From Archangium violaceum (GTDB lineage Bacteria; Myxococcota; Myxococcia; Myxococcales; Myxococcaceae): 64,000 nucleotides of DNA. Below the pieces are notes generated by a model. That model did not search any database, had not been told where the DNA came from, and was given only the letters and a program-made list of their open reading frames with translations. Location: positions 4,553,001 through 4,617,000 of the forward strand of contig NZ_CP069396.1 of NCBI RefSeq assembly GCF_016887565.1, read 5' to 3'. The position numbers and the translations under genes were made by a program. Positions 1,778-39,351 of the stretch are shown here, piece after piece (within the stretch, counting starts at the first letter, position 1; every line of letters begins with the position of its first letter).

Positions 1778-1807
1778 GGGAGTGGCTCAATCGAATCACG
1801 AGCGCTT

Positions 1808-2578
1808 TCATGGTTGCAGCGAGCGCGGCTCCGGGGGCTTCTGTCTGACGGGCATGTAGCACTTGCCGTCGAACTCGGCCGTGCTCCTGGGACAGGGGGC
1901 CTTGGCCTCAAGCAGTACCCAGCATCCTCCGTGGATCTCCACCTCCGTTCCCTTGAGGCAGGGCGGCTTTCGCTGTCCCTCGAAAGGGGCGCTCGGCATC
2001 GGGTAGCCGATGATGGGTTGGGTGTCGTCTTGCAGATCGACCCAGGCCACTGGCTCATTCCACACGGCTTTGGCCTCTCCGGGACTCCACTTGTCGGTAG
2101 ACCCGGGAGAACGGGGCCAGAGCGTCACCGCCGCCAGTACGAGCGCCACCGCCGCGAGTGCTCCAACCCCCACGCGCCGCCACTTCTTGCGTGAGGCTTC
2201 TCGCCTGGGAGGCCGTGACAAGGGCTCTCGATTGAGGTGCGCTCCCGTATCCGCTCGCTCATCGACACAGGCGAGCGCGCCCGACAGCCTGATGAACATC
2301 CGCGTCAGTTCCGAGAGGGCCAAGGCCTCCGCCCTGGGCGCGTGCTCCACCTCCAGTGCCAGGAACGGAGGGTCGGCATCTGCCGTGACGCGCACGGTCC
2401 ACGGCGTTCGTGGACGCCACGTCCCCGCCCGTCCCGGCCTCACCACCAGCGCGAAGGCACCTGTCTCGACGTTGTGCGCCTCGTAGATGCGGCCCACTTC
2501 CGAGCCGGTATTCCGGTAGCGCTTGCGGATGTGGTACCGCCCCAGCTTGCCTCCGCTCCACTTCGGTGTGTCGCCCAT
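1808..2578 (-). CDS. Kinase-like single-pass membrane protein (pseudokinase remnant), unknown role
   Basis: Start taken at the ATG ending at 2578, preceded by GGGAGAG; the frame continues upstream to 2698 without a good start signal. The 256-residue protein opens with a segment that resembles the glycine-rich/N-lobe strand pair of myxobacterial Ser/Thr kinases (YRNTGSEVGRIYEAHNVETG) but there is no VAIK lysine, HRD or DFG motif, so no kinase activity is expected. A basic stretch and one transmembrane helix follow (residues ~125-145, GALAAVALVLAAVTLW). The C-terminal part has a two-Cys pattern (PPCLKGTEVEIHGGCW ... CPRS..FDGKCYMP) that I recall from the extracellular tails of myxobacterial kinases. 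Interpretation: an inactive, shortened member of that family. Converges on no partner gene. Confidence 0.55.
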   Translation of the reverse strand: MGDTPKWSGGKLGRYHIRKRYRNTGSEVGRIYEAHNVETGAFALVVRPGRAGTWRPRTPWTVRVTADADPPFLALEVEHAPRAEALALSELTRMFIRLSGALACVDERADTGAHLNREPLSRPPRREASRKKWRRVGVGALAAVALVLAAVTLWPRSPGSTDKWSPGEAKAVWNEPVAWVDLQDDTQPIIGYPMPSAPFEGQRKPPCLKGTEVEIHGGCWVLLEAKAPCPRSTAEFDGKCYMPVRQKPPEPRSLQP

Positions 2579-2800
2579 GCCTGCATCTCTCCCGCGAGGT
2601 GAGGTCGGACTACTTACCCCAAGAGTCGGGTTCCACGAAATCTGTTGGCTCCCCGAGGAGCGGAAGGACCGGCGCGACGACTGGCGCCACCGAGCCACGC
2701 CACCTCGCCCATGCTCCAGAATTCGTCACTCGGCGCTCCGGGATGAGCCCACGCCAGCAGGTATCGGTATGGTGGTGGCTTTCTCCCGGAGGTCGTCGTC

Positions 2801-4192
2801 ATGCGGCTGCGGAGCCTCTTCCTCATCGGCGCGGTCCTCCTGGCGCTCCTGAGTCTGGGTTCCGCGGCTGGCTTGTTCTGGATGAGCACCCAGTTCCAGT
2901 CGCAGACCACGCGCCTGAGCGACTCCATTGACAGGGTGCACTCCGCCGAACGGCTGTCACACTCCCTCTTCCTGCTCCAGGTGGTCCAGGAGTTCGCGAG
3001 CATCCATGCCTCGGACGTAGGGCCGCCTGTCAGCGTGGACGAGGCGCGCCGCCGGGTTTCGGAGCAGCTGGAGCAGATCGATCCGTACGCGGACACCGTC
3101 CAGGAGCGGGCGTTGCTCGAGAATGTCCGCCGCCAGGTCGAGGCATACCTTCGCGCTCCAGCTCAGGAGCGGCTGTCCAGGTTGAGGGATGCCATCGAGG
3201 CCGCCGAGGCCGTGTCCATGTCGAGCATCGAGCGGGCACGTGCCGTCCGCGAAGAGGCGGCACGGGTGAGCGACGCGGCAAGGCTCATCGGAGGACTGCT
3301 CGCGATAGGGATCGTGATGGGGGTGGCAGTCGTCCTCGCCGCCACCCGCACGCGCCTCTATCTGCCGCTCCTGTCGATCCGCCGGGCGCTGGCGGCCTTC
3401 AAGTCCGGACAGCGGGAGTCGAGATTGGCGCAGGTGGGAGTCCGCGAACTCCGCGAGCTGGCCGCCGAGTTCAACGACATGGCCGAGACCCTGAGCAGCC
3501 AGGACGCGCGGCATGTCCAGTTCCTGGCGGGCGTCGCCCACGATCTGCGCAACCCGCTCAATGTCCTCAAGCTGTCGGTCCAGCTCCTCATCCGGGCGCC
3601 AACGCCGCCTCCGCCAGAGAAGGTCCGGGAGTCACTGGTCCGCATCTCCACGCAGCTCGATCGGCTCGATCGCATGGTGGGAGACCTCCTGGAGCAGACC
3701 CGGATCGAGGCTGGCAATCTCGAGCTCCGCCTGGAGGACAGCGATCTGCGCGAGCTCGTGACGGAGGTGATCGAGCTCCACCGGCCCTCGAGCCAGCAGC
3801 ACCAGATCGAGCTCTCCGTGCCCGACATGCCCGTTCCGGTGCGTGGGGATCCGACGCGGCTCAGCCAGGTGCTCACCAACCTCCTGAGCAATGCCATCAA
3901 GTACTCGCCTCGGGGAGGCCTCGTGCGCGTGCTGCTCACTCAGTCCCAGGATGAAGTGATGCTCTCCGTCTCCGACGAAGGCATAGGCATCCCTCCCGAC
4001 GAGTACGAGCACATCTTCGAGCCCTTCAGACGGAGCAAGGACTCGAGCGCGGAGATCCCCGGCATCGGATTGGGGCTCTCCGTCTCCCGCCGCATCGTGC
4101 GGGCCCACGGCGGGGACATCGAGGTGGTGAGCCAGGTAGGAGCCGGCTCGACCTTCCGGGTCCGGCTACCGTCCCAGCACCCCCGCACGTAG
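2801..4192 (+). CDS. Membrane-bound sensor histidine kinase (HAMP-HisKA-HATPase)
   Basis: A 463-residue sensor kinase. Start at ATG 2801 is preceded by GGAGG at a suitable distance. Two transmembrane helices (about residues 6-29 and 165-187) flank a ~135-residue, mostly helical periplasmic sensor. A HAMP linker follows, then the dimerisation/phosphoacceptor H-box (FLAGVAHDLRNPLN, with His about residue 247), and the ATP-binding domain with N-box (LTNLLSNAIKYS), G1 (DEGIGIPPDEY) and G2 (GIGLGLSVSRRI). All catalytic motifs look intact. No response regulator lies next to it, so it is an orphan kinase, a common arrangement in myxobacteria. The signal it senses cannot be deduced. Confidence 0.93.
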   Translation: MRLRSLFLIGAVLLALLSLGSAAGLFWMSTQFQSQTTRLSDSIDRVHSAERLSHSLFLLQVVQEFASIHASDVGPPVSVDEARRRVSEQLEQIDPYADTVQERALLENVRRQVEAYLRAPAQERLSRLRDAIEAAEAVSMSSIERARAVREEAARVSDAARLIGGLLAIGIVMGVAVVLAATRTRLYLPLLSIRRALAAFKSGQRESRLAQVGVRELRELAAEFNDMAETLSSQDARHVQFLAGVAHDLRNPLNVLKLSVQLLIRAPTPPPPEKVRESLVRISTQLDRLDRMVGDLLEQTRIEAGNLELRLEDSDLRELVTEVIELHRPSSQQHQIELSVPDMPVPVRGDPTRLSQVLTNLLSNAIKYSPRGGLVRVLLTQSQDEVMLSVSDEGIGIPPDEYEHIFEPFRRSKDSSAEIPGIGLGLSVSRRIVRAHGGDIEVVSQVGAGSTFRVRLPSQHPRT

Positions 4193-4204
4193 GCGGAAAT
4201 GAAA

Positions 4205-4245
4205 CGGCCCACTCCCGCCGCGAAGCTGCTCGGGGGAGTGGGCCG
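4205..4245. terminator. Bidirectional terminator between convergent genes
   Basis: A perfect 12-base-pair stem (4205-4216 with 4234-4245, arms CGGCCCACTCCC / GGGAGTGGGCCG) with a 17-base loop lies between the convergent histidine kinase and glucanase genes. On the minus strand it is followed by TTTCATTTCC, so it should work best for the glucanase transcript. Confidence 0.75.
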
Positions 4246-4270
4246 CTGATGTCGAGACTGCGTCAAGCCA

Positions 4271-6643
4271 TCACTTGGTCCAGGTGTAGTTCGGAGAATC
4301 GTACTGCGCGCCGTTCTTGTTGTAGGTGTACGAGTACGTGAGCGTCTGACCCGAGCCCAGGCCGGACACGGTGTGCTCCCAGCGGCCCGTGCCGCTGTTG
4401 TACGTCATGGTGACGTTCTGCTGCCCGAGGCCCGGGTAGCTGTAGTGCACGATGACGTAGTTCGCCGTGAAGCCCGTGGGCTTGAACCACACGAGCGCCT
4501 GGGTGGAGCTGACGGTGCTCGTGCCGTAGGTCCACTCGGTGCCGGTGCCGTTGCTGCCGCCGGTGCTGCCCGACTGCGTGGTGGCGCTGGCGGTGTTGCT
4601 GACCGCCGAGACGTTGCCGGCCGCATCCCGCGCCCTGACCGTGAAGCTATAGGCCGTCGAGGCCGTCAGCCCCGTGCTGCTGTACGTCGTCGTGGTCGAC
4701 GTGCCGACGAGCGTGCCGTTGCGGTAGATGTCATAGCCCGTCACGCCCACGTTGTCCGACGATGCGCTCCAGGTCAGGTTGATCTGGCTGCTCGAAGCGG
4801 CCGTGGCCGACAGGTTCGCCGGAGTGGTCGGCGCCTGGGTGTCGGTCGGCGGCGGCGTCCCCGTGCCCACGTACTCGGCAACCGTCTGCCTCATGGCCTC
4901 GGCGGGGGAGTTGGCGTAGACCCGGCCACCGGTGTTGTTGATCACGTGGGTGATCTCACTGCCAGCCATTCCATTCAGCCAGATGGTGGTCATGTGGTGG
5001 ATCTTGATGCCCGGGTAGTTGGGCGCCTCGATCGCGGTGTGCAGCTTGACGGCCGCGTCACGGAAGTACGAGTACACACCCACGCCCCACGCCTCGTGGG
5101 TGGTCACCGAGTTGGCGATCTTGTACGACGCGTACCCGTTCACCGTGCCGTTCATCCACGACGCCTGGTTGGGGACGTCATAGGGAATCTCGGACTGGTA
5201 GAAGTACACCCGGCCGCCATTGCCGTTCCACACCGTCTGGTACTCTTCGTGGTGCTCGTTGAACAGGCCGTAGATCGTGACGTTCCTTCCGTTCACGACG
5301 AGGCCGCTCTTCGTGATGTTGGTGTTCCAGTAGGCGCTCTCTCCGTGGTCCGCGCGCCACAGCCAGAGCTGGTCACCCACGACGTTGTTGCTGTTGATCG
5401 TGATGCCCACGTCGTTGCGGCCGGGGAACGCACCGCCGGTCCTGACGGTCAGATCATAGAGGAAGGTCGGGTTGGCCGAGTGATCGAGCGAGCTGCCCGT
5501 GGGACCGACCTCCAGGAGGCTGGGGGAGTTGACCGTACCGGCCTCGAGGATCATGCCCGCGATCTTCACGCCGGGCACGTCGGCGACCTTGATGGCCGGC
5601 GTGCCACTCGTCGGGATCAGCGAGGGAACGCCAATGCCGAGCAGGATGGTGTTGGCGTTGTTGACGCGAAGCGTGTCATTGAGCGAGTAGATGCCCGGGG
5701 TGAACAGGAGGTGCTTGCCCTGGCTCAGCGCGCTGTTGAGGCTCGCGGCGCTGTCCGTCTCCGGACGGGCGATATAGAACTGGGAGATGGGGAGCGACTG
5801 TCCCGGCGTGGAACCGGCGGCCCAGCTGACGCCCTGGGTATTGGTCTGCAGGGCCGGGACGAAGACGTAATACTGTCCGCCGCTGGTGTAGAGGTAGGGC
5901 TTCTCCCGGATGATCGGCGTCCTGTCGACGACCGTGTAGGCCGGCTCCGGGAAATTCCCCGTCGGCGTATTCACGCTGCCCACGAACACCATGTTCCACA
6001 CGGCGTTCGACCAGCTCGCCCACTTGCTGTTTCGGGAGAGCCACTGCTGCTGCGAGGCGGGAACGACGGTACTGTCCACGAGGGAGTCGGCGAGAAATCC
6101 GCCGCTGGCCCAGCCGGCGTTCCAGTTCTCGTCGAACTCGAACAGGTGCAGCTCGCCCTTGACGTGCAGACGCCGCAGGGGCGCGGCCTGCGAAACGGCG
6201 ATCCGCGTGATGCCGTTGGACGGGGTGACGGCGAAGTTCTCGAGGGTGCGCCAGAAGTTGCAGGTCGCGTTGGCGGCGGGCATCCACTTCGCGGTGACGT
6301 TCACCCCGCCGTTGATGTTCACGTCATCGGGATTCTGTCCCAGACCCGCGACGTGAGTGTAGAAGCCCACGTTGAAGGTGACGTTATATGCACCCGGCTT
6401 GAAGAGCAGTGCATACCGGTCGGTGCCAAACTGATTGGCCTCCATCTTCGTGAAGACGGTGTTGGCGACATTGTTGATGTCGGTCGCCGCCATCGTCGGA
6501 TCGAAGACGTAGACGCGAGGGCCGAAGATGGTGGTGTTCGCCTGGGAAATGGGCGTCGCCGCTTCGGCCACACCTGGAATGACCGCGCAGAGTCCCGCCG
6601 CGGTGGCCAGGGCGGAAACCGTGGATGCCAGCTTTTTGATCAT
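4271..6643 (-). CDS. Secreted GH55-like beta-1,3-glucanase with FnIII and CBM56-like modules
   Basis: Start at the ATG ending at 6643, preceded by AGGAG and followed by a signal peptide (MIKKLASTVSALATAAGL, cleaved after GVAEA). The ~570-residue catalytic part is a parallel beta-helix-like protein of the GH55 type, a family often misnamed 'adenylyl cyclase' in actinobacterial genomes: recognisable blocks are YALLFKPGAYN, GFYTHVAGLG, VSQAAPLRRLHV, REKPYLY, LLFTPGIYSLNDTLRV, LWLWRADHG and YFYQSEIPYD (Glu ~485, candidate catalytic acid). A fibronectin type III domain follows (residues ~600-690), then a C-terminal module from ~696 resembling CBM56, which binds beta-1,3-glucan. The expected role is extracellular laminarin or fungal-wall degradation. 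Operator-like dyads upstream and the neighbouring lacI gene suggest substrate induction. Family assignment is from recalled motif similarity. Confidence 0.8.
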   Translation of the reverse strand: MIKKLASTVSALATAAGLCAVIPGVAEAATPISQANTTIFGPRVYVFDPTMAATDINNVANTVFTKMEANQFGTDRYALLFKPGAYNVTFNVGFYTHVAGLGQNPDDVNINGGVNVTAKWMPAANATCNFWRTLENFAVTPSNGITRIAVSQAAPLRRLHVKGELHLFEFDENWNAGWASGGFLADSLVDSTVVPASQQQWLSRNSKWASWSNAVWNMVFVGSVNTPTGNFPEPAYTVVDRTPIIREKPYLYTSGGQYYVFVPALQTNTQGVSWAAGSTPGQSLPISQFYIARPETDSAASLNSALSQGKHLLFTPGIYSLNDTLRVNNANTILLGIGVPSLIPTSGTPAIKVADVPGVKIAGMILEAGTVNSPSLLEVGPTGSSLDHSANPTFLYDLTVRTGGAFPGRNDVGITINSNNVVGDQLWLWRADHGESAYWNTNITKSGLVVNGRNVTIYGLFNEHHEEYQTVWNGNGGRVYFYQSEIPYDVPNQASWMNGTVNGYASYKIANSVTTHEAWGVGVYSYFRDAAVKLHTAIEAPNYPGIKIHHMTTIWLNGMAGSEITHVINNTGGRVYANSPAEAMRQTVAEYVGTGTPPPTDTQAPTTPANLSATAASSSQINLTWSASSDNVGVTGYDIYRNGTLVGTSTTTTYSSTGLTASTAYSFTVRARDAAGNVSAVSNTASATTQSGSTGGSNGTGTEWTYGTSTVSSTQALVWFKPTGFTANYVIVHYSYPGLGQQNVTMTYNSGTGRWEHTVSGLGSGQTLTYSYTYNKNGAQYDSPNYTWTK

Positions 6644-6817
6644 TGCATTGTCTCCTGGGGAGAGAGGACCGCTCGTATCGAGAAACTTCAGACTGTCAGG
6701 GCCTGGGCAAGACACGGGCATCGCGCCGACTCGGATTCGAGCCGCGCGGAACGTCACGTCCAGTTGTGTTCCTTCACCGCATGAGGAGAACCCGGCCTGA
6801 TTCGCGGACGGGACGCC

Positions 6818-6831
6818 TGATGGCGCTTTCA
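6818..6831. promoter_or_regulatory. LacI-type operator candidate O1
   Basis: TGATGGCGCTTTCA matches the symmetric 14-mer TGAAAGCGCTTTCA at 12 positions, with the CpG-centred core typical of LacI/GalR operators. It is the copy nearest to the glucanase gene, about 180 bases upstream of its ATG. A further half-site (GCGCTTTC) lies at 6886-6893. Confidence 0.55.
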
Positions 6832-6939
6832 AGTTCGCGTTTCGCGCTGCGTCAAGGCACCTCGAGTTCAGCTCGAGGCCACCTAGCGCTTTCCAAGAAT
6901 AGATTTAAAGCAGGTTATCCCGCGAGTAAAGCATTCTTT

Positions 6940-6953
6940 TGAAAGCGCCTTCA
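6940..6953. promoter_or_regulatory. LacI-type operator candidate O2
   Basis: TGAAAGCGCCTTCA differs from the symmetric 14-mer TGAAAGCGCTTTCA at one base and is flanked by further matching T/A. It sits in the 494-base gap between lacI and the glucanase gene. On the minus strand an AT-rich stretch with a weak promoter-like pair (TTTACT, 16 bases, TTAAAT) follows it, so a repressor here would overlap or precede the glucanase promoter. Confidence 0.65.
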
Positions 6954-7088
6954 AAAAGTGATGGCTGCTTTGTGCGAAAGGCAGGCAGAGCGGGGCATCT
7001 GCTCGGTAGTGGACACTCCAAGGGGTTGACGCGGCCGGGCAGATGATGACGCCATGCGTCTTGTTTTGCATCGCGGCACCGTTGAAGG

Positions 7089-7102
7089 TGAAACCGCTTT
7101 CA
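7089..7102. promoter_or_regulatory. LacI-type operator candidate O3
   Basis: TGAAACCGCTTTCA differs from TGAAAGCGCTTTCA at one base. It lies just downstream of the lacI stop codon. With O1 and O2 it gives three spaced operators (centres about 120 and 150 bases apart), an arrangement compatible with repression by DNA looping. Confidence 0.6.
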
Positions 7103-7137
7103 ATTCGCGATGTCGCGATGCGTCAATGCCCGAGTCG

Positions 7138-8166
7138 TCAGCCGCGTTTCCTCGTGGTCGATTCACGTACGATGAGCTGCAGCGGCAGGTCCGGCATGGA
7201 GACCTTCTTGCCCGCGATCATCCGCAGCATCGCCTCGCCAGCGACCTTGCCCAGGTCGTACACCGGCTGACGCACGGTGGTGAGCGGCGGGGTGGTGTAG
7301 AGCGAGCCCGGCAGATCATCGAAGCCAATCAGCGACATGTCCTCGGGGACGCGGATGGACTTGTTGTGCAGCGCCAGGCGGGCGCCATAGGCCATCTGAT
7401 CATTGGCGACGAACAGGGCGGTGAAGCTCAGGCGGGTGGCCAGGAGCTGGTTCAACGCCAGCAGACCACTGCCCTCGTGGAAGTCGCCGTAGGCGACGAG
7501 GCGATCGTCCATGGGGATGCCCGCCTTCTTCAGCGCGCGGCGGTAGCCCTCCAGGCGCTCCCGGGCATCGATGTGCTCCTGGGGCCCGGCGATGTGGGCG
7601 ATGCGGGTATGGCCCAGCTGGATCAGATGCCAGGTGGCCTCGAAGGCGGCCTGCTCGTTGTCGAGCCGGATGCTGAGCACGTTGGGGCCTTGCAGGTCGC
7701 GTCCGGTGATGACGAGCGGCACGCGGTTCGCGTAGCTGAGCAGGGTCTCGTCGTCGATCGCGCCGGTCAGCACGATGACGCCCTCGACGCGGCGCGCCAC
7801 CAGCAACGCCATGCGCTCCATCTCCTTGGTCGCGTTCCAGTGCCCGCTCACGAACAAGGGCGAGTAGCCGGCCTCGGCCAGGCTGTCCTCGATCCCCTTG
7901 AGCGTCTCGTTATAGAAGGCGCTGGAGATGTCTTGCGTAATCACCCCCACCGACATGGTGTGACCCAGCGCCAGTCCCCGAGCGATCTCATTGGGGTGGT
8001 ACTGGAGGTCCGCGATGGCCTGCTCCACGGCTTGACGCTTGCTATCACTCACGCGGGCGGTGCCATTGAGGATGCGCGACACTGTACTCGGTGAGACGCG
8101 GGCACGACGGGCAACTTCTTCCAGCGTCACGGGCGGCGAACTGCGATCATCCATGTAGGTGCTCAT
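7138..8166 (-). CDS. LacI-family transcriptional regulator, probable glucan-utilisation repressor
   Basis: A 342-residue LacI/GalR regulator. The N-terminal helix-turn-helix and hinge are intact (VTLEEVARRARVSPSTVSRILNG, then HPNEIARGLALG), followed by a periplasmic-binding-protein-like effector domain from about residue 70 (VGVITQDISSAFYNETLKGI; FVANDQMAYGARLAL; SLIGFDDLPGSLYTTPPLTTV). The start may be at 8166 or at an in-frame ATG 12 bases downstream (8154); neither has a strong ribosome site. It is encoded directly upstream of the glucanase gene, same strand, with operator-like dyads in between. A weaker dyad with the same core (AAAGCGCCTTC, 8191-8201) sits just upstream of lacI itself, which suggests autoregulation. 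Confidence 0.92.
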   Translation of the reverse strand: MSTYMDDRSSPPVTLEEVARRARVSPSTVSRILNGTARVSDSKRQAVEQAIADLQYHPNEIARGLALGHTMSVGVITQDISSAFYNETLKGIEDSLAEAGYSPLFVSGHWNATKEMERMALLVARRVEGVIVLTGAIDDETLLSYANRVPLVITGRDLQGPNVLSIRLDNEQAAFEATWHLIQLGHTRIAHIAGPQEHIDARERLEGYRRALKKAGIPMDDRLVAYGDFHEGSGLLALNQLLATRLSFTALFVANDQMAYGARLALHNKSIRVPEDMSLIGFDDLPGSLYTTPPLTTVRQPVYDLGKVAGEAMLRMIAGKKVSMPDLPLQLIVRESTTRKRG

Positions 8167-8188
8167 AACATCGGCCCAAGAACCCCGT

Positions 8189-8202
8189 CAAAAGCGCCTT
8201 CC
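8189..8202. promoter_or_regulatory. Weak LacI-type operator upstream of lacI
   Basis: CAAAAGCGCCTTCC shares the AAAGCGCCTTC core of operator O2 but matches the symmetric 14-mer at only 10 positions. Its place 22-36 bases upstream of the first lacI start codon fits an autoregulatory site. Confidence 0.4.
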
Positions 8203-8246
8203 CGGGATGTGTCATGAGGTGGCGTACCCTCTGAAGGGCCGGAGGA

Positions 8247-8271
8247 TGCCCGGCGGCAGGCCCGCCGGGCA
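8247..8271 (-). terminator. GC hairpin downstream of the polysaccharide lyase gene
   Basis: A perfect 10-base-pair stem (TGCCCGGCGG / CCGCCGGGCA) with a 5-base loop. There is no T-run, so it is only a possible terminator for the polysaccharide lyase transcript. The rest of the 220-base gap before lacI is GC-rich and shows no gene. Confidence 0.4.
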
Positions 8272-8386
8272 CGGCCGCCGCGGCGGTGCCTCCGGTGGGG
8301 TGGGGGGAGATGCGGCCACCCCACGCCAGAGGCCCAGGAGGGCCTTCCGGAGGGCGTCCCCGGCCTTCGTCACGCCCGGGCCGGGA

Positions 8387-9166
8387 CTACCACTGATCGG
8401 GGTCGGCCTCGGCGAAGGTCGTGCCCGCGCCGATCTCGTCGAACCAGATGCTGCGCGTCCCCTGGCTGCCTTGCATGTACCCGTCGTCGTACCAGCCATT
8501 CGCGTAGAGACCGACGCGGAACTGGAAGTACCGGTCGTCGGCGACGGTGGTGCTCAGGTTGTACTGCTCGAGGACCTTGGTGCCGTCATACCAGAGCTTG
8601 TAGAAGCCGGTGCCGTCGCTCGCCCACTTCGCCTGGATGACGATCTTGTGCCACTCACCCGCGGTGACGGTGGCGAGATTGCCGAACGTGACGGTCTTCT
8701 GAGCGCAGACCGTGCCCTGCTTGACGCGCGTGAAGAGCTGATTGCCCGAGATCCAGACCATGCTGGACGGCATGTAGTCGTCGCAGCCGGTGTTGGAGAA
8801 GTCCGCGATGAACTGGGCGATGTTGAAAGACTGGGGCTGGAACTGCCAGTCGGCCTGCAGCCGGAAGGCGAAGCCGTAGAAGCCGGTGTCTCCGCGATGG
8901 TACACGTTGTTCTTCACGACCTCCGAGTGATAGCGGCCGTTGTACGAGGGGTCGTAGATCTGCGTGACCTTGATGGCGGTCGGGCCGTTGTAGGTGACAT
9001 TCGTCACCTCGTTCACGGAGCCATTGTGCTCCCTGTTGATGGAGTTCCAGCCGGAGAGGGTGCCGGTGTTGTGGAAGATGACGGCGGCCTCCGCGACCAG
9101 CGCGAAGGCGAGCAGTGAGACACCGACCGCGGCACTGATGTTCTTGGTTTTCTTCGTGATCTTCAT
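8387..9166 (-). CDS. Secreted polysaccharide lyase, probably PL20/glucuronan-lyase-like
   Basis: A 259-residue exported protein: a basic N-terminus and hydrophobic helix (ISAAVGVSLLAFALVAEA) form the signal peptide. The mature part is a single beta-jelly-roll-like domain with the blocks YHSEVVKNNVY, GFYGFAFRL, FNIAQFIADF, PSSMVWISGNQL, GEWHKIVIQAKW and a final SIWFDEIGAG. This arrangement is what I recall for family 20 polysaccharide lyases (fungal and bacterial glucuronan lyases), and more broadly for the heparin-lyase-like 'Polysacc_lyase' fold. It has no accessory modules. It lies next to the glucanase/LacI pair and probably acts on extracellular or fungal polysaccharide. The exact substrate is uncertain. 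Confidence 0.65.
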   Translation of the reverse strand: MKITKKTKNISAAVGVSLLAFALVAEAAVIFHNTGTLSGWNSINREHNGSVNEVTNVTYNGPTAIKVTQIYDPSYNGRYHSEVVKNNVYHRGDTGFYGFAFRLQADWQFQPQSFNIAQFIADFSNTGCDDYMPSSMVWISGNQLFTRVKQGTVCAQKTVTFGNLATVTAGEWHKIVIQAKWASDGTGFYKLWYDGTKVLEQYNLSTTVADDRYFQFRVGLYANGWYDDGYMQGSQGTRSIWFDEIGAGTTFAEADPDQW

Positions 9167-9285
9167 GAGGCTCTGGGGGTTGGGGGTGGGTTAACCAGTA
9201 AAACCAGATTAAATTACCAGGGCCGATATACCCGTGACATCCCCATTTCGAGGGAGCGTGGCACCGGGGTGCACCCCCCTGGCCC

Positions 9286-10386
9286 TCAGTGGATCCGAAG
9301 GCGGTAGAGACTTACCGGCCAGACGGTCTTCGACTGGCCCTGGTTGAACAGGCCGACCCGATCCATCTGCGGGACGGGCAGCCAGATGAAGCCCTGCTCG
9401 TCGATGACGGGAGCATCGACCCAGTGGAGGCGCGGATCCTGGATCACGGTTTCGATCCGGCCGTCCGGCGTCCGCTTCTGGAGGGCGTCTTGCGCCAGGT
9501 TGGTGAAGTAGAGATCGCCATTGGCATCCATGGCCGTGCCCCCCACCGGAGGCAGGTCGGCCCAGGGCTCGACGTGGGCGGCGAGTGCCTCGGGACGGAT
9601 GCTCGGATCATCCAACCAGCGGGTCTCGATGCGCGACCAGGGGCCACTCAAGGGGGCGAAGTAGAGCCAGTGGCCGTCGGGGCTGAGCTCCAGCGGATCC
9701 GCGTTCACCTTCAGGTCCGAGCGGTCGGGGGCTTTCACGGTCTGCCCGCCGAGCACGATGGGCCGGTCGGCGCGGGCCGTGGTCGCCGCCACACCGTCCA
9801 GCACCCGGCGTGTCTTCCCCGTCTCGAGGTCGAGCACGATGAGCCCGGGTCGGCCAGCGTCGGTCAGATAGGCGTGGCGACCGTTGAATCGGATGTCATC
9901 GATGTAGCTGCCCTCCTGGGCTGCCTCCGGCCCGAAGGGGTAGATGCGTGAGACGCGGTGGGTCTTCAAGGAGATGCGAACCACCTTGGCGCCACCGGGC
10001 AGCGGATTTCCGCCGAAGTCGGGCGCACCGGTGTCCACCACCCACAGATCTCCGGACGGGTCCCGGTGGATGGCATTGATGTTCACGAAGACGTTGCGCG
10101 GATCATCGCCAGGCTTCCAGGCATTCCAACTGGCGTCCGGATAGGGTTTGGGCCGGCCCTTGGCGTCCAGTCTGGCCAGCGCCGGGCCTTTCGAGCCGGT
10201 CCACCGCGGGCCGCTGACGAAAGTGTTTCCTTCGGCGACGGCCACGCCGTTCCAGATCATGGAGTTGCTCTCGGCGGCCACGAGCAGGGACCGCGGAGGG
10301 GTCTGTTTCTGGGTTTGAGCCTGGGCTCCTGGAGCGATGAAGGCGAAAGAGAGCCACGCCGTCATCGCGAGCGATGCGGATTTCAT
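9286..10386 (-). CDS. Major royal jelly/yellow-family (L-dopachrome tautomerase-related) propeller protein
   Basis: A 366-residue protein with a signal peptide (MKSASLAMTAWLSFAFIAP, cut near AQAQ). The body carries MRJP/yellow-family motifs: NINAIHRDPSGDLWVVDTG, the repeated 'D.. RFNGRHAYLTDAG', LELSPDGHWLYFAPLSG, and GGTAMDANGDLYFTN. Bacterial members are six-bladed propellers of periplasmic or secreted location whose substrate is mostly unknown; a few are linked to lactone or aromatic metabolism. Upstream of its start is TTTCCCTCCC on the plus strand (GGGAGG on the minus), a good ribosome site. It is 30 bases downstream of the oxidoreductase gene and probably in the same transcript. Confidence 0.8.
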   Translation of the reverse strand: MKSASLAMTAWLSFAFIAPGAQAQTQKQTPPRSLLVAAESNSMIWNGVAVAEGNTFVSGPRWTGSKGPALARLDAKGRPKPYPDASWNAWKPGDDPRNVFVNINAIHRDPSGDLWVVDTGAPDFGGNPLPGGAKVVRISLKTHRVSRIYPFGPEAAQEGSYIDDIRFNGRHAYLTDAGRPGLIVLDLETGKTRRVLDGVAATTARADRPIVLGGQTVKAPDRSDLKVNADPLELSPDGHWLYFAPLSGPWSRIETRWLDDPSIRPEALAAHVEPWADLPPVGGTAMDANGDLYFTNLAQDALQKRTPDGRIETVIQDPRLHWVDAPVIDEQGFIWLPVPQMDRVGLFNQGQSKTVWPVSLYRLRIH

Positions 10387-10416
10387 GGGAGGGATTTCCT
10401 TGTTGGAGGCGAAAGA

Positions 10417-11430
10417 TTAGAAGCCGCTCAGGACTACCTTGCCCATGGAGCGGCCACTCTCGATGACCGCGTGGGCGCGCTTCAGGTTGGCCGCGTTGAT
10501 GGGGCCCATGTTGGTCTTGAGCGTGGTGCGCAGGAGGCCCGCGTCCACCAGGTCGGCCACCTCGTTCAACAGGTGATGCTGGGCGATCATGTCCGGCGTC
10601 TGGTACCGCGCGCGGGTGAACATGAGCTCCCAGTGGATGGAGGCGCTCTTGCCCTTCAGTTTGTTGATCGGCAGGGGCTGGGCCGGATCGTCGATCAGGG
10701 CCAGCGCCCCCTGGGGAGCGAGCACCTCGACGATCTCATCGAAGTGGTTCTCGGTGTGCGTGAGCCCGAGCACGTACTCGACGCCATGGGGAACCAGCGC
10801 CTTCACCTGTTGGGCCCAGGGCTTGGAATGGTCGACCACGTGATGCGCGCCCAGCTCGCGGACCCAGGCCTGCGTCTCCGGACGCGAGGCGGTGGCGATC
10901 ACCTTCAGCCCCGTCAGCCGCCGGGCGAGCTGAATGGCGATGGAGCCCACTCCACCCGCGCCGCCCAGGATCAGCACCGAGCCGGCATCGGCGGGCTTTC
11001 CCCTGGTCACGCGCAGGCGGTCGAACAACAGCTCCCAGGCGGTGATGCTGGTCAGCGGGAGGGCGGCGGCCTCGGCGAAGCTCGAGGACTTCGGCTTGCG
11101 ACCGACGATCCGCTCGTCCACGAGCTGCTGCTCCGCGTAGGAGCCGGGCCGTTCCAGGGCTCCGGCGTAGAACACCTCATCGCCCGGCTTGAACAGCGTG
11201 GCGTCCGGGCCAACCGCGAGCACCGTTCCCGCGGCGTCCCAACCCAGGATCTTCGCCTGTCCCGAAGGGTCGACCCGGGCGCGCACCTTGACGTCCACCG
11301 GGTTCACCGAGATGGCTTCCACCTTCACGAGGAGCTCCCTGCCCGTGGGCTTCGGTGCTGGGACCTCCAGGTCGATCAGGCTCTCGGGATTCTCGATGGG
11401 CGATGGCTGGCGATACACGACGGCTTTCAT
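10417..11430 (-). CDS. MDR-superfamily zinc-independent alcohol dehydrogenase/quinone oxidoreductase
   Basis: Start at the ATG ending at 11430 (MKAVVYRQP), preceded by GAGGAG; the frame runs further upstream without a better signal. The 337-residue protein has the GroES-like N-terminal half (VNPVDVKVR, LGWDAAGTVLAVG) and a Rossmann half with the dinucleotide motif GGAGGVGSIAIQLARR followed by the family's typical GAHHVVDHS. Catalytic zinc ligands of classical alcohol dehydrogenases are absent, so it belongs to the NAD(P)H:quinone-reductase-like branch often found beside LysR regulators. It is divergent from the LysR gene, which probably controls it. Confidence 0.88.
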   Translation of the reverse strand: MKAVVYRQPSPIENPESLIDLEVPAPKPTGRELLVKVEAISVNPVDVKVRARVDPSGQAKILGWDAAGTVLAVGPDATLFKPGDEVFYAGALERPGSYAEQQLVDERIVGRKPKSSSFAEAAALPLTSITAWELLFDRLRVTRGKPADAGSVLILGGAGGVGSIAIQLARRLTGLKVIATASRPETQAWVRELGAHHVVDHSKPWAQQVKALVPHGVEYVLGLTHTENHFDEIVEVLAPQGALALIDDPAQPLPINKLKGKSASIHWELMFTRARYQTPDMIAQHHLLNEVADLVDAGLLRTTLKTNMGPINAANLKRAHAVIESGRSMGKVVLSGF

Positions 11431-11538
11431 GTGACTCTCCTCGGATGCGGCCCGTGGGGCCGCGTTCGAGGGAGACAATGCGTTCGGGATGTCGATATTC
11501 ACAATTGATAGTTGATATCGTCATCATAAACGCCCTAT
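11431..11538. promoter_or_regulatory. Divergent oxidoreductase/lysR promoter region
   Basis: The 108-base gap between the divergent genes includes an AT-rich island near 11492-11520 with interlocking inverted repeats (ATATTCA ... TGATAT around CAATTG). LysR proteins bind imperfect dyads with T-N11-A spacing in such gaps; several candidates fit here. No single site can be fixed by eye. Confidence 0.4.
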
Positions 11539-34248: not shown

Positions 34249-35208
34249 TCAGTCCTCCAGCGCGGACACGTCCGGGCAGGCCGAGGCACTACCCTCCTCG
34301 GAGTCATCCCAGCTCCGCTTCGAATAGGTGACGCGGAAGCTGGCATTCCAGCACTCCACCTGGCTGGCGGTGCGTCCCGCGGGCAGGTCTCCGCCCGTCA
34401 CCGACACGAACCCCACGCCCCCCTGGTCGCGAGTCCACCGGCTGATGATGGTCACGTCCTCCCTCCGTCCGCCGAGGATGGTGTCGACGTCGAGGATCAG
34501 GAATCCCATCTCCGCCAATCCTCCGGGAATCTCCCGGTACGAGTAGATGAACTCGGGCCTGAGCGAGTGCTCGGAAGGCACGAAGTGCATCTGCACTCCG
34601 ATGGGCAGCGCGCGCGTCTGGTACACGATGTCCAGCCGATCCAGGTGCCCGAGCCCTTTCATCTCATAGCCGTGGTCCCTCGCGTCCGCGAGGAGGAGCT
34701 GCACGGTGCCCTCGCCCTTGCGCAGCCCGCCATCCGGCTTGAAGGTCCCCGCCACGGCGTTCCACCAGCCCTCCTCGCCAGACCCCTTGCGGCGGAACTG
34801 GAGCAGGTAGCCGAAGTGCTCGGGCTCGCGGTTCATCACGAAGCGCAGCTCGTGGCCGGCGTGCTCCGAGTCGTCCCAGGGCCCCCACACGCGGAGCTCC
34901 GAGGCACGCGTCGTCGGCGGCAGCTCCCGGATGCGCTCCAGCACGGTGAGCAGCCCGTCCAACCCGGTGTTGAACTCGTCCGAGACCCTGCGCGTTTCCA
35001 CGTAGCGCTGGGAGATTTCCCCCAGGGCCAGCTGCCCCACGCGCTGGTTCAGGCCCTGCTCGAGCGCGGAGTCCCCGGTCCTGGGCAGCTTGGAGGTCAG
35101 GTCCTCGCGCGTGGGCAAGGCGTTGATGAACTCGAGGTCGTCGTTGGAGAAGTTCCCACCGCACGAAACGGTGAGGCAGCCCAGGAGGAGGAGCCAGCAG
35201 GTCCGCAT
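34249..35208 (-). CDS. Lipoprotein of unknown function, last gene of the ECF-caspase operon
   Basis: Start at the ATG ending at 35208, six bases after AGGAG (an adjacent GTG at 35211 is too close). Signal MRTCWLLLLGCLTVSC, anchor Cys16. The 319-residue protein is a relative of the lipoprotein encoded at 38148-39140: both begin with F...LPT.E.L..K.P after the anchor, carry a VWGP(W/H) block in the first third, a mid-protein 'G.F..DG/D' stretch, and end with a GGDL...A.ECW/ECWD Cys block and a final pair of Cys. I know no named family. It lies 13 bases downstream of the caspase-barrel gene, so translation from the same mRNA is likely. Confidence 0.7.
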   Translation of the reverse strand: MRTCWLLLLGCLTVSCGGNFSNDDLEFINALPTREDLTSKLPRTGDSALEQGLNQRVGQLALGEISQRYVETRRVSDEFNTGLDGLLTVLERIRELPPTTRASELRVWGPWDDSEHAGHELRFVMNREPEHFGYLLQFRRKGSGEEGWWNAVAGTFKPDGGLRKGEGTVQLLLADARDHGYEMKGLGHLDRLDIVYQTRALPIGVQMHFVPSEHSLRPEFIYSYREIPGGLAEMGFLILDVDTILGGRREDVTIISRWTRDQGGVGFVSVTGGDLPAGRTASQVECWNASFRVTYSKRSWDDSEEGSASACPDVSALED

Positions 35209-35221
35209 CACGCGCTCCTAT

Positions 35222-36823
35222 TCAGAGGCGGTACGTGAGGAGCGCCCCGAGCTCCCAGTAGCCCAGGGAGCGCTTCGCATCGACGTTGTAGAGGAGGTAA
35301 TGGACGCGGGCGCGTCCGGTGAGCTCGAGGCGCTCCAGCAGCCGCCAGTGCACGCCCGTCACGAGGCCCGGGGTAAGCACCGCGTAGAACTGGTCCGGGA
35401 GGCTCGCGTCCTCGAAGTCGCGGACCATGACCAGATAGGACAGCCGCGCTCCGACGAAGGGGGCCACCCTGCCCAGGGGCCACTCGGCCACCAGCGAGGT
35501 GCCCACCGTCAGCAGCGAGTAGCGGTAGCCCGGGCCCGACAGTGTAGGCAGCTCCAGGGTGGCCCGCTGGCTTCCCAACGAGACATCGAAGTCCCAGCGC
35601 CAGTTCTCGCGGAAGTAGTGGTGCAGGCCCACCTCCAGGCCCAGCAGTGGCGTGGACAGGAAGAGGTTCTCGCGCGTGGGCGCATCGAAGAAGGAGTGGT
35701 AGCCGCCGGTGAGCCCCAGTGTCCAGGCCGTGCGGAGCGCGCGCTCCCGGGGCGGTGCGCCCTTCACCGGGTCGTCCGAGAAGGGCGCGTCGCGCAGCAG
35801 AGACTCGTCGATCACCGAGGTGCGCCCGCGCCGGACCTCCGCCACGCCGATGCGCAGCCGGTCCGGCAGCCGGCGCTTCACCGTGTACGTCCCCGGGGCG
35901 AGCGCCACGCGCCGCTCCGAGTCCGCGGCCTTGTCCAGCTCGGCCACCACGGCGCCTCGTGGATCCACGAAGTAGTAGGCCCCGGCGGGCGCGGTGGCGG
36001 GCACCAGCAGTCCCTCGTCGCGCACCCGCAGGTCCGTCAGCACCAGATCGCCATTGCCAGCCAGGTCGTAGCTGAAGGTGGGGTGCTGGGGCCCGGCGCT
36101 GCTGTCCGCGGTGTCCGCCACGGTGCGGACGTAGGCATGGGAGTAGGCCTCGAAGAGCGTCACCTGCCCGTCGCCCGAGCGGTCCGCGTCTCCCATCAGC
36201 CCGCTGACCAGGTGGTGGGAGAAGTAGCTGGCTCGCAGCAGGTCCGACTCCTGCGAGTCCTCGTCCGACGAGCTGGAGGTGAGGATGACGAGCCCCCGGG
36301 CCTCCCGCTGTGCCCCCGCGTCGATGGCGAAGGCCGGCGCGCGCCGGGCTCCCTTCGTCCGCGTGAGCGCCCCCGAGCGGCACGAGTCCAGGATGGCGAT
36401 GCGGATGTCCGCGGGCGCCGCCGACAGCCGGCGCTTGAGCGCCTCGAGCTCCACCGCGCTGTCCCCCAGCCGCAGCGAGCCGTCCTTCGCATGGCCCGAG
36501 TAGTAGACGATGAGCGCGGTGCGCTCGCCCCGGGCCCGGGCCGCGCGTATGCCCGATTCCAGCTCGGCCAGCGCCCGGTGGAAGTCCTCCGCGTCCTCGT
36601 CCAGCAACAGCTTCGCGTCGCCGGACGCCACGCCGCCGAGCCGCAGCAGCAGGTCGTGCATCTTGCGCGCGTCGTCCCGGGCGAAGCGCAGCGGCCGGGT
36701 GTCCGCGCCGCCCTCGTCGTTGCCCACCACCAGCGCGAAGCGGTGCGGCGTCTCCGCCCGGACGGCCGCCGCCAGCAGCAGCACCAGGGCGAGCACCTGG
36801 CCGTGGCCCACGAGGCGTCTCAT
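35222..36823 (-). CDS. Exported caspase-family (C14-like) protein fused to an outer-membrane beta-barrel
   Basis: Start at the ATG ending at 36823; it overlaps the anti-sigma stop in an ATGA. The 533-residue protein has a signal peptide (residues 1-23, cut after VRA). Residues ~27-245 are a caspase fold: RFALVVGNDEGG, ALIVYYSGHA with His111, and IAILDSCRSGA with Cys148, the catalytic dyad, plus SYFSHHLVSGL and DGQVTLFEAYSHA. A PEGA-like linker (VALAPGTYTVKRRLPDRL) leads into a C-terminal ~165 residues of alternating strands ending WELGALLTYRL, an outer-membrane barrel pattern. A periplasmic or surface-located caspase anchored in the outer membrane is implied. Function unknown; the operon's ECF pair suggests envelope signalling. 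Confidence 0.82.
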   Translation of the reverse strand: MRRLVGHGQVLALVLLLAAAVRAETPHRFALVVGNDEGGADTRPLRFARDDARKMHDLLLRLGGVASGDAKLLLDEDAEDFHRALAELESGIRAARARGERTALIVYYSGHAKDGSLRLGDSAVELEALKRRLSAAPADIRIAILDSCRSGALTRTKGARRAPAFAIDAGAQREARGLVILTSSSSDEDSQESDLLRASYFSHHLVSGLMGDADRSGDGQVTLFEAYSHAYVRTVADTADSSAGPQHPTFSYDLAGNGDLVLTDLRVRDEGLLVPATAPAGAYYFVDPRGAVVAELDKAADSERRVALAPGTYTVKRRLPDRLRIGVAEVRRGRTSVIDESLLRDAPFSDDPVKGAPPRERALRTAWTLGLTGGYHSFFDAPTRENLFLSTPLLGLEVGLHHYFRENWRWDFDVSLGSQRATLELPTLSGPGYRYSLLTVGTSLVAEWPLGRVAPFVGARLSYLVMVRDFEDASLPDQFYAVLTPGLVTGVHWRLLERLELTGRARVHYLLYNVDAKRSLGYWELGALLTYRL

Positions 36824-37572
36824 GGCTTGCGCAGCAGCCAGTGGGTCTCCTCGCCGTCCAGGCCCAGCGAGGTCATGGTCTCCACCTTCCTCCCGGCGGC
36901 CTCCCAGGCCCGCCTCGCCTCGGCGGCCACCGCCTCCGCCTCCAGCGGCTTCTCGGAGAGCACCACCACCACGCGCTCGTAGCCTCCGGGGGTGAACTCC
37001 ACGCTGTCGGGCAGCCAGTGCTTTCCGGCGCCCGCCTCCACGGGAAGGCTCGGCCCGGACTCGGGGTAGAGCGACGACACCTCGCCGGCCTCGTCCACCG
37101 ACACCGCCAGCACGTACTTGTGCGTCCCCGCCACGTATCCCAGGCGGATCTGCTCGCCCGGCAGCAGCTCCTCGGTGTCGCCCGGCTGGACGGAGCGCTG
37201 GTCTCCCTTGCCACCGATGCGCAGCTCCGCCGACGCGCCTCCCTTGAGCCGGTTGCCCGCGGGGGACTCGGACAGCAGCGGCCGCACCGCCACGGCCAGC
37301 AGCACCGTGGCCGCCACCGCCACCAGCAAGCCATTGAGCCGGGGCTTCGAGCTCTTCGCCTGCCCTTCCTTCAGGACGCGCTCCACTCCGGACGCGAAGC
37401 GCTCGAAGGGCACCTCCGCCTCGAATCGCGCCTGGTTCGCCTCGAGGCCCGCGAGCACCCCGTGACACTCCGCGCAGGCGGCCACGTGCTCCCGGGCCCG
37501 TTGGGACTCCGCATCGGGGAGCTCTCCAACGTGCAGTCGCCGCAGCGTCCACTCCGACAGGTGCGCGCTCAT
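36820..37572 (-). CDS. Zinc-finger anti-sigma factor with periplasmic DUF4384-like domain
   Basis: Start at the ATG ending at 37572, overlapping the sigma-factor stop in an ATGA. The 250-residue protein has an N-terminal cytoplasmic anti-sigma zinc finger (His29, Cys33, Cys36 in HVAACAECHG), one transmembrane helix (about residues 83-100, LLVAVAATVLLAVAV), and a periplasmic domain resembling DUF4384 (ELLPGEQIRLGYVAGTHKYV ... ERVVVVLSEKPL). It should hold the ECF sigma factor inactive until a periplasmic signal is sensed. The order sigma, anti-sigma, caspase with four-base overlaps at both joints implies translational coupling. Confidence 0.88.
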   Translation of the reverse strand: MSAHLSEWTLRRLHVGELPDAESQRAREHVAACAECHGVLAGLEANQARFEAEVPFERFASGVERVLKEGQAKSSKPRLNGLLVAVAATVLLAVAVRPLLSESPAGNRLKGGASAELRIGGKGDQRSVQPGDTEELLPGEQIRLGYVAGTHKYVLAVSVDEAGEVSSLYPESGPSLPVEAGAGKHWLPDSVEFTPGGYERVVVVLSEKPLEAEAVAAEARRAWEAAGRKVETMTSLGLDGEETHWLLRKP

Positions 37573-38120
37573 GGGACCTTCAGCTCCTCGTTCGTCAGGG
37601 CGGCGAACTGCTCCAGCCGCTTGCGCACCGTGGGCACCGAGCGCCCCAGCACCGCGGCCACCTCTTCCAGCGTCATTCCATCCACCCAGTAGTGCACCAC
37701 CGCCGTCTGCGTCTCCAGGTCCACCCGGGACAGGAGCGCGCGCACCAGCTCCCGCGTCTCCATCACCTGCGCCCCCCGGTCTCCCTCGGGGCGGGCCAGC
37801 TCGTCCCGCTCGAACCAGCGCCGCCAGGGGGCCCGCTCCGCGCGCAGCTGGTTGAGGCAGTGGTGGGTGGCGATCTTCATCAACCACGCCAGGGGCGAGG
37901 ACTCGGCGCGGAACTCATCCGCGTGGGTGAAGGCGCGGGCGAACACTTCCTGCATCGCGTCCTCGGCCTTGGTGGCGTCCTTCAACAGGTAGCGGCAGCG
38001 TCCATACACGCTGCCGCCGTATGCCGTGTACAGCTCGCGCAGGAGGGCGCGCCGATCCTTCTGACCACCGTCGATGACCTTCAGGGCCGGTTGGGGCGTT
38101 CCCGACAAGAGCTGCCTCAT
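37569..38120 (-). CDS. ECF-type RNA polymerase sigma factor
   Basis: A 183-residue group 4 sigma factor. Region 2 is at about residues 28-95 (LYTAYGGSVYGRCRYLLKD, AEDAMQEVFARAF, PLAWLMKIATHHCLNQLR) and region 4 at about 125-175 (DLETQTAVVHYWVDGMTLEE, VAAVLGRSVPTVRKRLEQ). Start at the ATG ending at 38120; no clear ribosome site precedes it and the gap to the upstream lipoprotein gene is only 27 bases, so translation may depend on readthrough coupling. It is followed by its anti-sigma factor. ECF factors of this layout usually drive their own operon in response to envelope stress. Confidence 0.93.
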   Translation of the reverse strand: MRQLLSGTPQPALKVIDGGQKDRRALLRELYTAYGGSVYGRCRYLLKDATKAEDAMQEVFARAFTHADEFRAESSPLAWLMKIATHHCLNQLRAERAPWRRWFERDELARPEGDRGAQVMETRELVRALLSRVDLETQTAVVHYWVDGMTLEEVAAVLGRSVPTVRKRLEQFAALTNEELKVP

Positions 38121-38147
38121 GTGGCTACGGGGTGATGTTCCCCGAGC

Positions 38148-39140
38148 TTACAACGTGGAGTAGGCCGCCGGGGTGAAGACGCAGTCAGTGGTCTCGGTGC
38201 CGTAGCCCACCCGCGGGTCGTAGCTGGCGCGCATGAAGTGGCTGATGAAGTTGCTGTCCCAGCACTCGTTGACGGTGGCCTCGCCCACCAGGTCCCCGCC
38301 CGACAGCCGGACATCCGAGCGGCCGGCGCCCCCCTGCTGCCAGCGGCTCTTGATGGTGAGGACCTCGGACTGGCTGGCGGTGCCGGCCGGCTTGTACCAG
38401 TCGTTGCTCAGCTTGAAGTTGAACTCACCGCCCTGGCCCGGGGTGGCGGAGTAGCGGTAGTCCGCGTCCGCGCGCTTGCTGGCGTCCTGGTCGTCGCGCA
38501 CCTGGCGGAACGCCGCGTCCACCGTAGCGGCGCTCTTGTCGTCCAGGCGCGAGTACTTGACCGTCATGCGGCCGACGTTGTCGTCGTTCTCGGGCAGCGT
38601 CCTCTGCCGGTCCCAGTCGAGGGTGAACTCGCCCTGGCCGAAGCCCTTCACCGGCTCGCCAGCCGCGTCCAGCGCGGCGGTGTGCGTGCCGACGATGACA
38701 TCCACGTAGGCCGAGTCGTCCGCGGTCTTCGCCTTGGCCGACAGCGTGTAGCCGTAGGTGTTGTCGCCCGTCTTCTTCACGGTGAGCTTCCAGGTGTTGC
38801 GGGCCAGCGCCTCCGTGTGCGGGCCCCACACCGCGGTGTCCTCGGTGACGGTGGTGGGGTTGTGCTTCGTCACCGCGTCCACCAGCCCCAGCACGGCCAG
38901 CGTGCCGCCGTTGACCACCGCGGTGGTGGTGCGGGTGATCTGGTAGAGGTCGCTCCTGCGGCCCTCTCCGGCCTGAGCGCCCACCTCCTCCACCCTCAGT
39001 GCCTGGCCGCTGTCCGCCGGCGTCTTCACCTCCACCATCTCCTTGGTGGGGAGCACGGAACGGAACTCCTCCTCACGGTCCATACGGCCACAACCAGCGA
39101 GCATCAGGGCGGCGAACAGCAGGTTCTTGCGCAGCGTCAT
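38148..39140 (-). CDS. Lipoprotein of unknown function, first gene of the ECF-caspase operon
   Basis: Start at the ATG ending at 39140, after GAGGGGGA. Signal MTLRKNLLFAALMLAGC with anchor Cys17. The 330-residue mature protein is predicted to be rich in beta-strands (WKLTVKKTGDNTYGYTLSAK; GRMTVKYSRLDDKS). It shares the overall block order of the lipoprotein at the other end of the operon (LPTKEM near the N-terminus, VWGPHTEA, GEFTLDWD, GGDLVGEATVNECWDSNF). No family is recognised. It is 27 bases upstream of the sigma gene and on the same strand, which suggests that the operon promoter lies in front of it. A 12-base perfect palindrome sits 54-65 bases upstream of its start. Confidence 0.72.
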   Translation of the reverse strand: MTLRKNLLFAALMLAGCGRMDREEEFRSVLPTKEMVEVKTPADSGQALRVEEVGAQAGEGRRSDLYQITRTTTAVVNGGTLAVLGLVDAVTKHNPTTVTEDTAVWGPHTEALARNTWKLTVKKTGDNTYGYTLSAKAKTADDSAYVDVIVGTHTAALDAAGEPVKGFGQGEFTLDWDRQRTLPENDDNVGRMTVKYSRLDDKSAATVDAAFRQVRDDQDASKRADADYRYSATPGQGGEFNFKLSNDWYKPAGTASQSEVLTIKSRWQQGGAGRSDVRLSGGDLVGEATVNECWDSNFISHFMRASYDPRVGYGTETTDCVFTPAAYSTL

Positions 39141-39193: not shown

Positions 39194-39205
39194 GTCCCTA
39201 GGGAC
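39194..39205. promoter_or_regulatory. Perfect palindrome upstream of the ECF-caspase operon
   Basis: GTCCCTAGGGAC, fully symmetric, 54-65 bases upstream of the first lipoprotein start on the minus strand and ~150 bases before the divergent nucleotidyltransferase gene. It could be an operator. Elsewhere in the 211-base gap, 39245-39280 has an interrupted inverted repeat (GGCC.AACCCC ... GGGGTT.GGCC). No clear ECF-type promoter was identified by eye. Confidence 0.4.
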
Positions 39206-39351
39206 ACGGCAGGGGTCCAAAAACAGAAAAGTCGATTTTCAGAAGGCCAAACCCCCAGGGATTCCAAGGGGTTGGAGGCCCCTCGGTCGCCCTCCAGGCA
39301 TACCGGACGGGGGCTCCGACGAGAAAAAGGGCCCGTTCCTAGGTTTGCCCC

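Follow-up and report, generated by a model that had tools for sequence, protein, structure and literature searches.

A conserved myxobacterial operon joining an ECF sigma factor to a predicted outer-membrane caspase, and a recurrent Lys/Arg-Gly pattern that may mark an envelope-to-gene switch

We analyzed a 64,000-nt stretch (the window; positions 4,553,001-4,617,000) of the 13.2-Mb genome of Archangium violaceum, in which five adjacent genes encode a lipoprotein (LP1), an extracytoplasmic function (ECF) sigma factor, a transmembrane (TM) zinc-finger anti-sigma factor, an exported caspase with a C-terminal beta-barrel and a second lipoprotein (LP2); Table 1 lists the features, numbered within the window. 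Our reading, to which we give a probability of about one half, is that this operon is a dedicated envelope-to-gene switch, in which the caspase would process itself and cut the stalk of the anti-sigma factor, and the sigma factor so freed would amplify the operon. The caspase is possibly the trigger of the system, and not just its product, because Lys/Arg-Gly recurs in its own loop, at its barrel junction and in the anti-sigma stalk. Gene order, linkage, and conservation of the promoter and of the motifs were taken from sequence; export, the barrel and the disorder of the candidate sites come from models.

We infer the signal, the cleavages, the site-1 role and the feedback as follows. The lipoproteins and the barrel-anchored caspase would occupy the outer side of the periplasm, and the zinc-finger anti-sigma factor in the inner membrane would hold the ECF sigma factor. 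Upon an envelope signal, the caspase would mature by cutting its own loop between K157 and G158, and a caspase cut between K354 and G355 would release it from the barrel. The released caspase would cut the anti-sigma factor just outside the inner membrane (R-x-K110, before G111), and this stalk cut would act as site-1 cleavage, upon which regulated intramembrane proteolysis would follow and the sigma factor be released. Once free, the sigma factor would use the conserved promoter to transcribe the operon that encodes it, closing a positive feedback loop in which the regulon is very small.

The Lys/Arg-Gly pattern recurs at three sites, one in the anti-sigma stalk and two in the caspase. In the anti-sigma stalk (R108-L-K110-G111), K110 is found in 63/63 orthologues, G111 in 62/63 and R108 in 60/63, and the rest of the stalk is variable. 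Within the Archangium genome, a Lys-Gly (KG) stalk is found in 9/9 TM anti-sigma factors that belong to caspase operons, as compared to 1 of ~17 other TM zinc-finger proteins. DUF4384 proteins outside sigma loci do not have KG. In the caspase, the loop motif is R155-T-K157-G158, with K and G invariant, and the junction motif is followed by residues that vary among the 58 caspases compared. Leaving aside the signal peptide, the AlphaFold2 (AF2) model has low confidence at residues 163-171 and 356-362, which adjoin the loop and junction KG sites, respectively. Among 45 divergent sigma-linked caspases, [KR]G is present at column 157 in 42/43 and at column 354 in 36/37 (next-best column: 25/40), counts to be read knowing that many loops come from one family and are not independent, and that sigma-linked sequences were the basis of the search profiles. 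Some families have a longer loop (L169, L176, L181, L212), and in these the KG is shifted along with the loop. As a control, the loop KG was found in 0/31 other caspases of the phylum, which come from the top of the Pfam ranking, mostly have no sigma gene in the flank fetched and differ in architecture from the operon caspase. Since prokaryotic caspase homologues cut after basic residues (PMC6426788) and self-processing is common in the caspase clan (PMC4357240), we read the shared Lys/Arg-Gly as a cut-site signature; the family literature together with the conserved KG sites suggests that the operon caspase cuts after Lys/Arg.

One paralogue lacks the loop KG (L081, G000:C1:4522000-4534000; a lipobox caspase with a barrel-like C terminus), and the junction site is absent there too, a joint loss that counts in favor of the switch. 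A caspase with a TKG loop that is not sigma-linked was seen at L165 and L199; at the latter (G148:C29:8000-23000) it lies beside a DUF4384 protein on the opposite strand, and a sigma gene was not detected.

The predicted architecture would put the protease in the periplasm. The caspase has a signal peptide ending in AVRA, and a p20 fold with a His/Cys dyad that places it in Peptidase C14 (PF00656 above its cut-off; metacaspase-like by fold and profile), with H111, C148 and D146 invariant in the 58 sequences. The AF2 model built on these relatives (pLDDT 88.7) contains a caspase domain, a beta linker and eight strands. Using Foldseek, the caspase domain was matched to metacaspase-9/procaspase-6 (~2e-6), and the list for the barrel is headed by OmpA/NspA (3.5e-9/6.4e-9) and also includes Ail and OmpX. 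With a signal peptide and an eight-stranded barrel, both predicted, the protein has the makeup of an outer-membrane barrel protein, so we predict that the caspase is exported and that its barrel resides in the outer membrane. In OmpA-type eight-stranded barrels both termini face the periplasm, and the caspase domain would accordingly lie in the periplasm, next to the outer membrane; a periplasmic protease with an outer-membrane anchor is the reading we favor for the protein. An earlier note on this DNA, made from the letters alone, had proposed an exported caspase-barrel acting in the periplasm or the outer membrane; the models agree with it and narrow the location to the periplasmic side of an outer-membrane anchor. 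In a comparison with anti-phage defence systems, PADLOC returned a weak generic caspase model only (2.6e-4).

The sigma factor (183 aa) consists of Sigma-70 regions 2 and 4 only, with Sigma70_r2, Sigma70_r4_2 and TIGR02937 all scoring above cut-offs, as expected for the ECF class. Its partner carries the zinc finger HVAACAEC and one TM helix (residues ~82-97; window ~37282-37329) followed by a periplasmic domain; HxxxCxxC is present in 59/63 orthologues, ahead of a single TM helix and in a gene that follows sigma, the layout of a zinc-finger TM anti-sigma factor, and we predict that it sits in the inner membrane and holds the ECF sigma factor.

An ECF-like promoter upstream of LP1 is conserved across genera (spacer of 12-13 bases). 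TTTCT-N16-GTGT was found in 35/54 upstream regions (a count inflated by kinship among these regions), whereas in shuffled sequences no bipartite motif exceeded 5. Genome-wide, the exact pattern occurs twice, before the five-gene operon and before a paralogous operon at 10.885 Mb, and not at all in the reversed control. Relaxed scans of the genome (two mismatches, two spacings) added one site, at 5.16 Mb, that did not surpass the reversed-pattern controls, and gave no credible further regulon member. The promoter directly precedes the sigma gene in two operons without LP1 (the L041 paralogue and L050), and no sigma-70 housekeeping promoter was found within the operon. Its position and conservation suggest that the ECF sigma factor of the operon reads it. 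The earlier note had the caspase produced, and perhaps activated, under the ECF pair; the promoter supports production, and the three Lys/Arg-Gly sites recast the second part, in that the caspase may itself trigger the switch.

The arrangement of the operon is conserved as well. The five minus-strand genes, the ATGA overlaps at the sigma/anti-sigma and anti-sigma/caspase joints and the gaps of 27 (LP1-sigma) and 13 (caspase-LP2) bases are exactly as first noted. The operon stands alone, between the end of a convergent gene at 34227 and the start of a divergent gene at 39352. In a protein search, caspase relatives were found in 124/145 genomes of the order, many of them full length across caspase and barrel; none was found among plasmid records. 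Out of 59 loci on named contigs with complete flanks, 53 keep the exact order LP1-sigma-anti-sigma-caspase-LP2, which argues against chance; they belong to Archangium, Corallococcus, Myxococcus, Pyxidicoccus, Citreicoccus, Hyalangium, Anaeromyxobacter and uncultured relatives. Scattering of the genes in related genomes, the outcome that would have spoken against one envelope-directed unit, was not seen, and the unit stands with a conserved gene order. Two loci are of interest in themselves: in L054 (G118, 6212-8502) the caspase gene is split by an insertion whose open reading frames (ORFs) resemble those of an IS66-type transposase set, while the operon's four other genes are still present, and L098, a record titled Comamonas sp. 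KCTC 72670, has a Corallococcus/Myxococcus-like operon (72% identity), so the assembly is likely mislabelled or contaminated.

Linkage between caspases and sigma factors extends over the whole Archangium genome, which contains ten PF00656 caspases and 53 sigma-70 region-2 genes: 10/10 caspases lie within 2 kb of a sigma gene on the same strand. All six DUF4384 matches in the genome adjoin caspases, and among the best 30 DUF4384 loci phylum-wide, most are anti-sigma factors beside sigma and caspase genes. The paralogous caspases also have signal peptides (L081 with a lipobox), and most have barrel-like C termini. An unrelated lipoprotein gene follows several of the paralogous operons (L081, L083, L085, L088). 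In L082 (G000:C1:12796000-12808000) the order is caspase-sigma-anti-sigma, and the C terminus of the caspase is TPR-like, not a barrel.

Several observations weigh against the switch. An outer-membrane-tethered caspase might not reach the anti-sigma stalk unless released; release from the barrel would solve the reach across the periplasm. The DUF4384-like domain has the anti-sigma KG at the start of its first strand, and this KG could be structural. The L081 anti-sigma stalk has LKG in spite of a caspase without both of its own sites, and the KG-loop caspase of L165/L199 stands apart from sigma genes. L195 and L196 (G109, G094) have a sigma factor and a DUF4384 anti-sigma factor with a KG stalk, with a lipoprotein-like gene upstream and no caspase within ~8 kb. 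In L041 (G000:C1:10880000-10893000, ~5760-6060) the anti-sigma factor is reduced to ~100 aa, with TM, stalk and periplasmic domain lost in frame; this operon keeps promoter, sigma and caspase and has no LP1/LP2. Promoter, sigma and caspase are also retained in the orthologue of this operon, L245, where the anti-sigma factor is shortened further. In L072, caspase and LP2 are present, and sigma and anti-sigma are absent. Copies that act in trans, are decaying or have been rewired could account for these loci (L195/L196, L041, L245 and L072); alternatively, they could mean that the caspase is nothing more than an output. As a separate observation, on each side of the L041 operon lies a set of three genes, the two sets being nearly identical (1386-5025 and 7734-11487; 517/223/471 and 515/224/510 aa), which suggests duplication around the operon.

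The alternative that survives best takes the caspase as output: another protease would open the anti-sigma factor, and the sigma factor would have an outer-membrane caspase made that processes itself and then acts on other proteins of the envelope, in quality control, lysis, predation or self-recognition. The caspase gene does sit downstream of the presumed sigma-dependent promoter, the loop and junction sites would suffice for self-maturation and release, and L041 retains sigma and caspase with an anti-sigma factor that has no periplasmic part. However, an output role leaves unexplained both the invariant KG of the anti-sigma stalk and the occurrence of DUF4384 in the genome only beside caspases, and we consider it unlikely, if a serious contender. 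A second alternative, which we regard as improbable, is that the caspase binds the anti-sigma factor as a partner or serves it as a gated sensor, with DUF4384 docking on the caspase, the KG serving docking or structure and the anti-sigma factor left uncut. The linkage of DUF4384 anti-sigma factors to caspases and the place of the KG at the start of the DUF4384 domain fit this, but the His/Cys dyad is invariant in the 58 caspases and the caspase itself has KG at two further, unrelated positions, each adjoining a low-confidence segment. We find it hardly credible that the caspase shares a transcript with the sigma/anti-sigma pair but is functionally separate from it, their linkage being historical: single genes are missing at some loci, but 10/10 caspases adjoin sigma genes across diverse paralogous families, with the order caspase-sigma-anti-sigma in one case.

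LP1 and LP2 are related to each other (mutual tblastn matches of ~24-27% identity; two iterated profiles collect 201 frames each), and neither matched a Pfam or NCBIfam family. The family invariants are C16, N80, W108, G167, G264, C286 and C311 (LP2 numbering). Using Foldseek, no PDB match to the LP2 fold was found at E<0.001; the best VIA match was an OspA mutant (Z 9.0, root-mean-square deviation 3.8 over 158 residues), close to the porin rows. We rejected LP1/LP2 as conserved caspase substrates, as the family has no invariant Lys/Arg. Of the two roles first proposed for this related pair, sensors or substrates, the former holds up better: judged by their sequences, they are more likely partners or sensors.

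Table 1. Features of the operon, with positions in the window
Feature	Position	Strand	Basis or remark
Conserved ECF-like promoter	39202..39229	-	TTTCTGTTT-N13-GTGTCC (N12 in most relatives), upstream of LP1
LP1, exported lipoprotein	38148..39140	-	Lipobox LAGC; family common to LP1 and LP2
ECF sigma factor	37569..38120	-	Pfam Sigma70_r2 1.1e-15, Sigma70_r4_2 3.9e-7; TIGR02937 2.8e-21
TM zinc-finger anti-sigma factor with periplasmic DUF4384-like domain	36820..37572	-	zf-HC2 0.0038, DUF4384 8e-4, both below curated cut-offs
Anti-sigma stalk K110-G111, candidate caspase cut site (R108-x-K110, before G111)	37240..37245	-	Conservation in orthologues
Exported caspase (Peptidase C14) with C-terminal 8-stranded beta-barrel	35222..36823	-	PF00656 2e-10; H111/C148; AF2; Foldseek
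Caspase K157-G158, loop after catalytic C148, candidate self-processing site	36350..36355	-	K and G 58/58
Caspase K354-G355, linker domain/barrel junction, candidate self-release site	35759..35764	-	K 57/58, G 58/58
Predicted OmpA-like 8-stranded outer-membrane barrel, residues 366-532	35228..35728	-	AF2 strands; Foldseek
LP2, exported lipoprotein	34249..35208	-	Lipobox TVSC; AF2 of family pLDDT 90.8

To our knowledge, most bacterial caspase homologues have no known substrate, and their role in cell death is largely an inference. The switch, if true, would supply a large family of these homologues with a definite substrate, cut site, location and output, and would be a new route by which an outer-membrane protein signals across the periplasm to a sigma factor; its predictions reach down to single residues (K110, K157, K354 and C148). 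More tentatively, and with the odds somewhat against it, bacterial caspases of this kind might form a class of self-releasing, outer-membrane-tethered site-1 proteases, with one Lys/Arg-Gly specificity serving three cuts and about ten such switches per genome in some myxobacteria.

Parts of this arrangement have precedents. Asplund-Samuelsson et al. (2012) reported four of the five metacaspases of M. xanthus DK 1622 in operons with sigma-70, and the same linkage in Anaeromyxobacter, Haliangium, Sorangium, Ralstonia and Fibrobacter (PMC3501461, available part of the text). Those operons share the sigma-70/metacaspase pair with ours, whereas the DUF4384 anti-sigma factor, export, the barrel, the lipoprotein pair, the promoter and the cut-site pattern are not described in that part. 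A direct description of an ECF sigma factor with caspase/peptidase C14/DUF4384 was not found in the literature searched, the ECF-group gene contexts of Casas-Pastor et al. (2021) lying outside the search. In a paper on the orthocaspase MaOC1, the search made found no mention of self-processing sites. The earlier note knew of no described system with this set; that has to be qualified for the sigma-70/metacaspase pairing, while the outer-membrane architecture, the lipoprotein pair, the dedicated promoter and the three-site pattern appear undescribed as far as the literature was searched.

There is a functional likeness to type III-E CASP/Craspase, in which Csx29 cuts Csx30, the inhibitor of the ECF-like CASP-sigma, and promoters are autoregulated (Strecker et al. 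2022, PMC10028731): there, as proposed here, a caspase-fold protease relieves the inhibitor of an ECF-type sigma factor. Craspase, however, is cytoplasmic and RNA-guided, with a TPR-CHAT protease and an unrelated inhibitor, whereas our operon encodes an exported C14 caspase with an outer-membrane barrel and a TM zinc-finger anti-sigma factor. We rejected membership in that system, as the protease matches Peptidase_C14 only, with no CHAT/TPR, and the five proteins match no Pfam Cas family. ECF54 sigma factors have CHAT proteins (caspase-HetF-like-domain proteases) in their gene context, which resembles our operon, but are described as having no anti-sigma factor (PMC8999054), unlike our operon, in which one is conserved. 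With RseA-DegS-RseP and RsiW, the operon would share a periplasmic site-1 cut of a single-span anti-sigma factor near the membrane; unlike in RseA-DegS-RseP, the proposed site-1 enzyme is a caspase from the same operon, anchored in the outer membrane, and not a PDZ serine protease.

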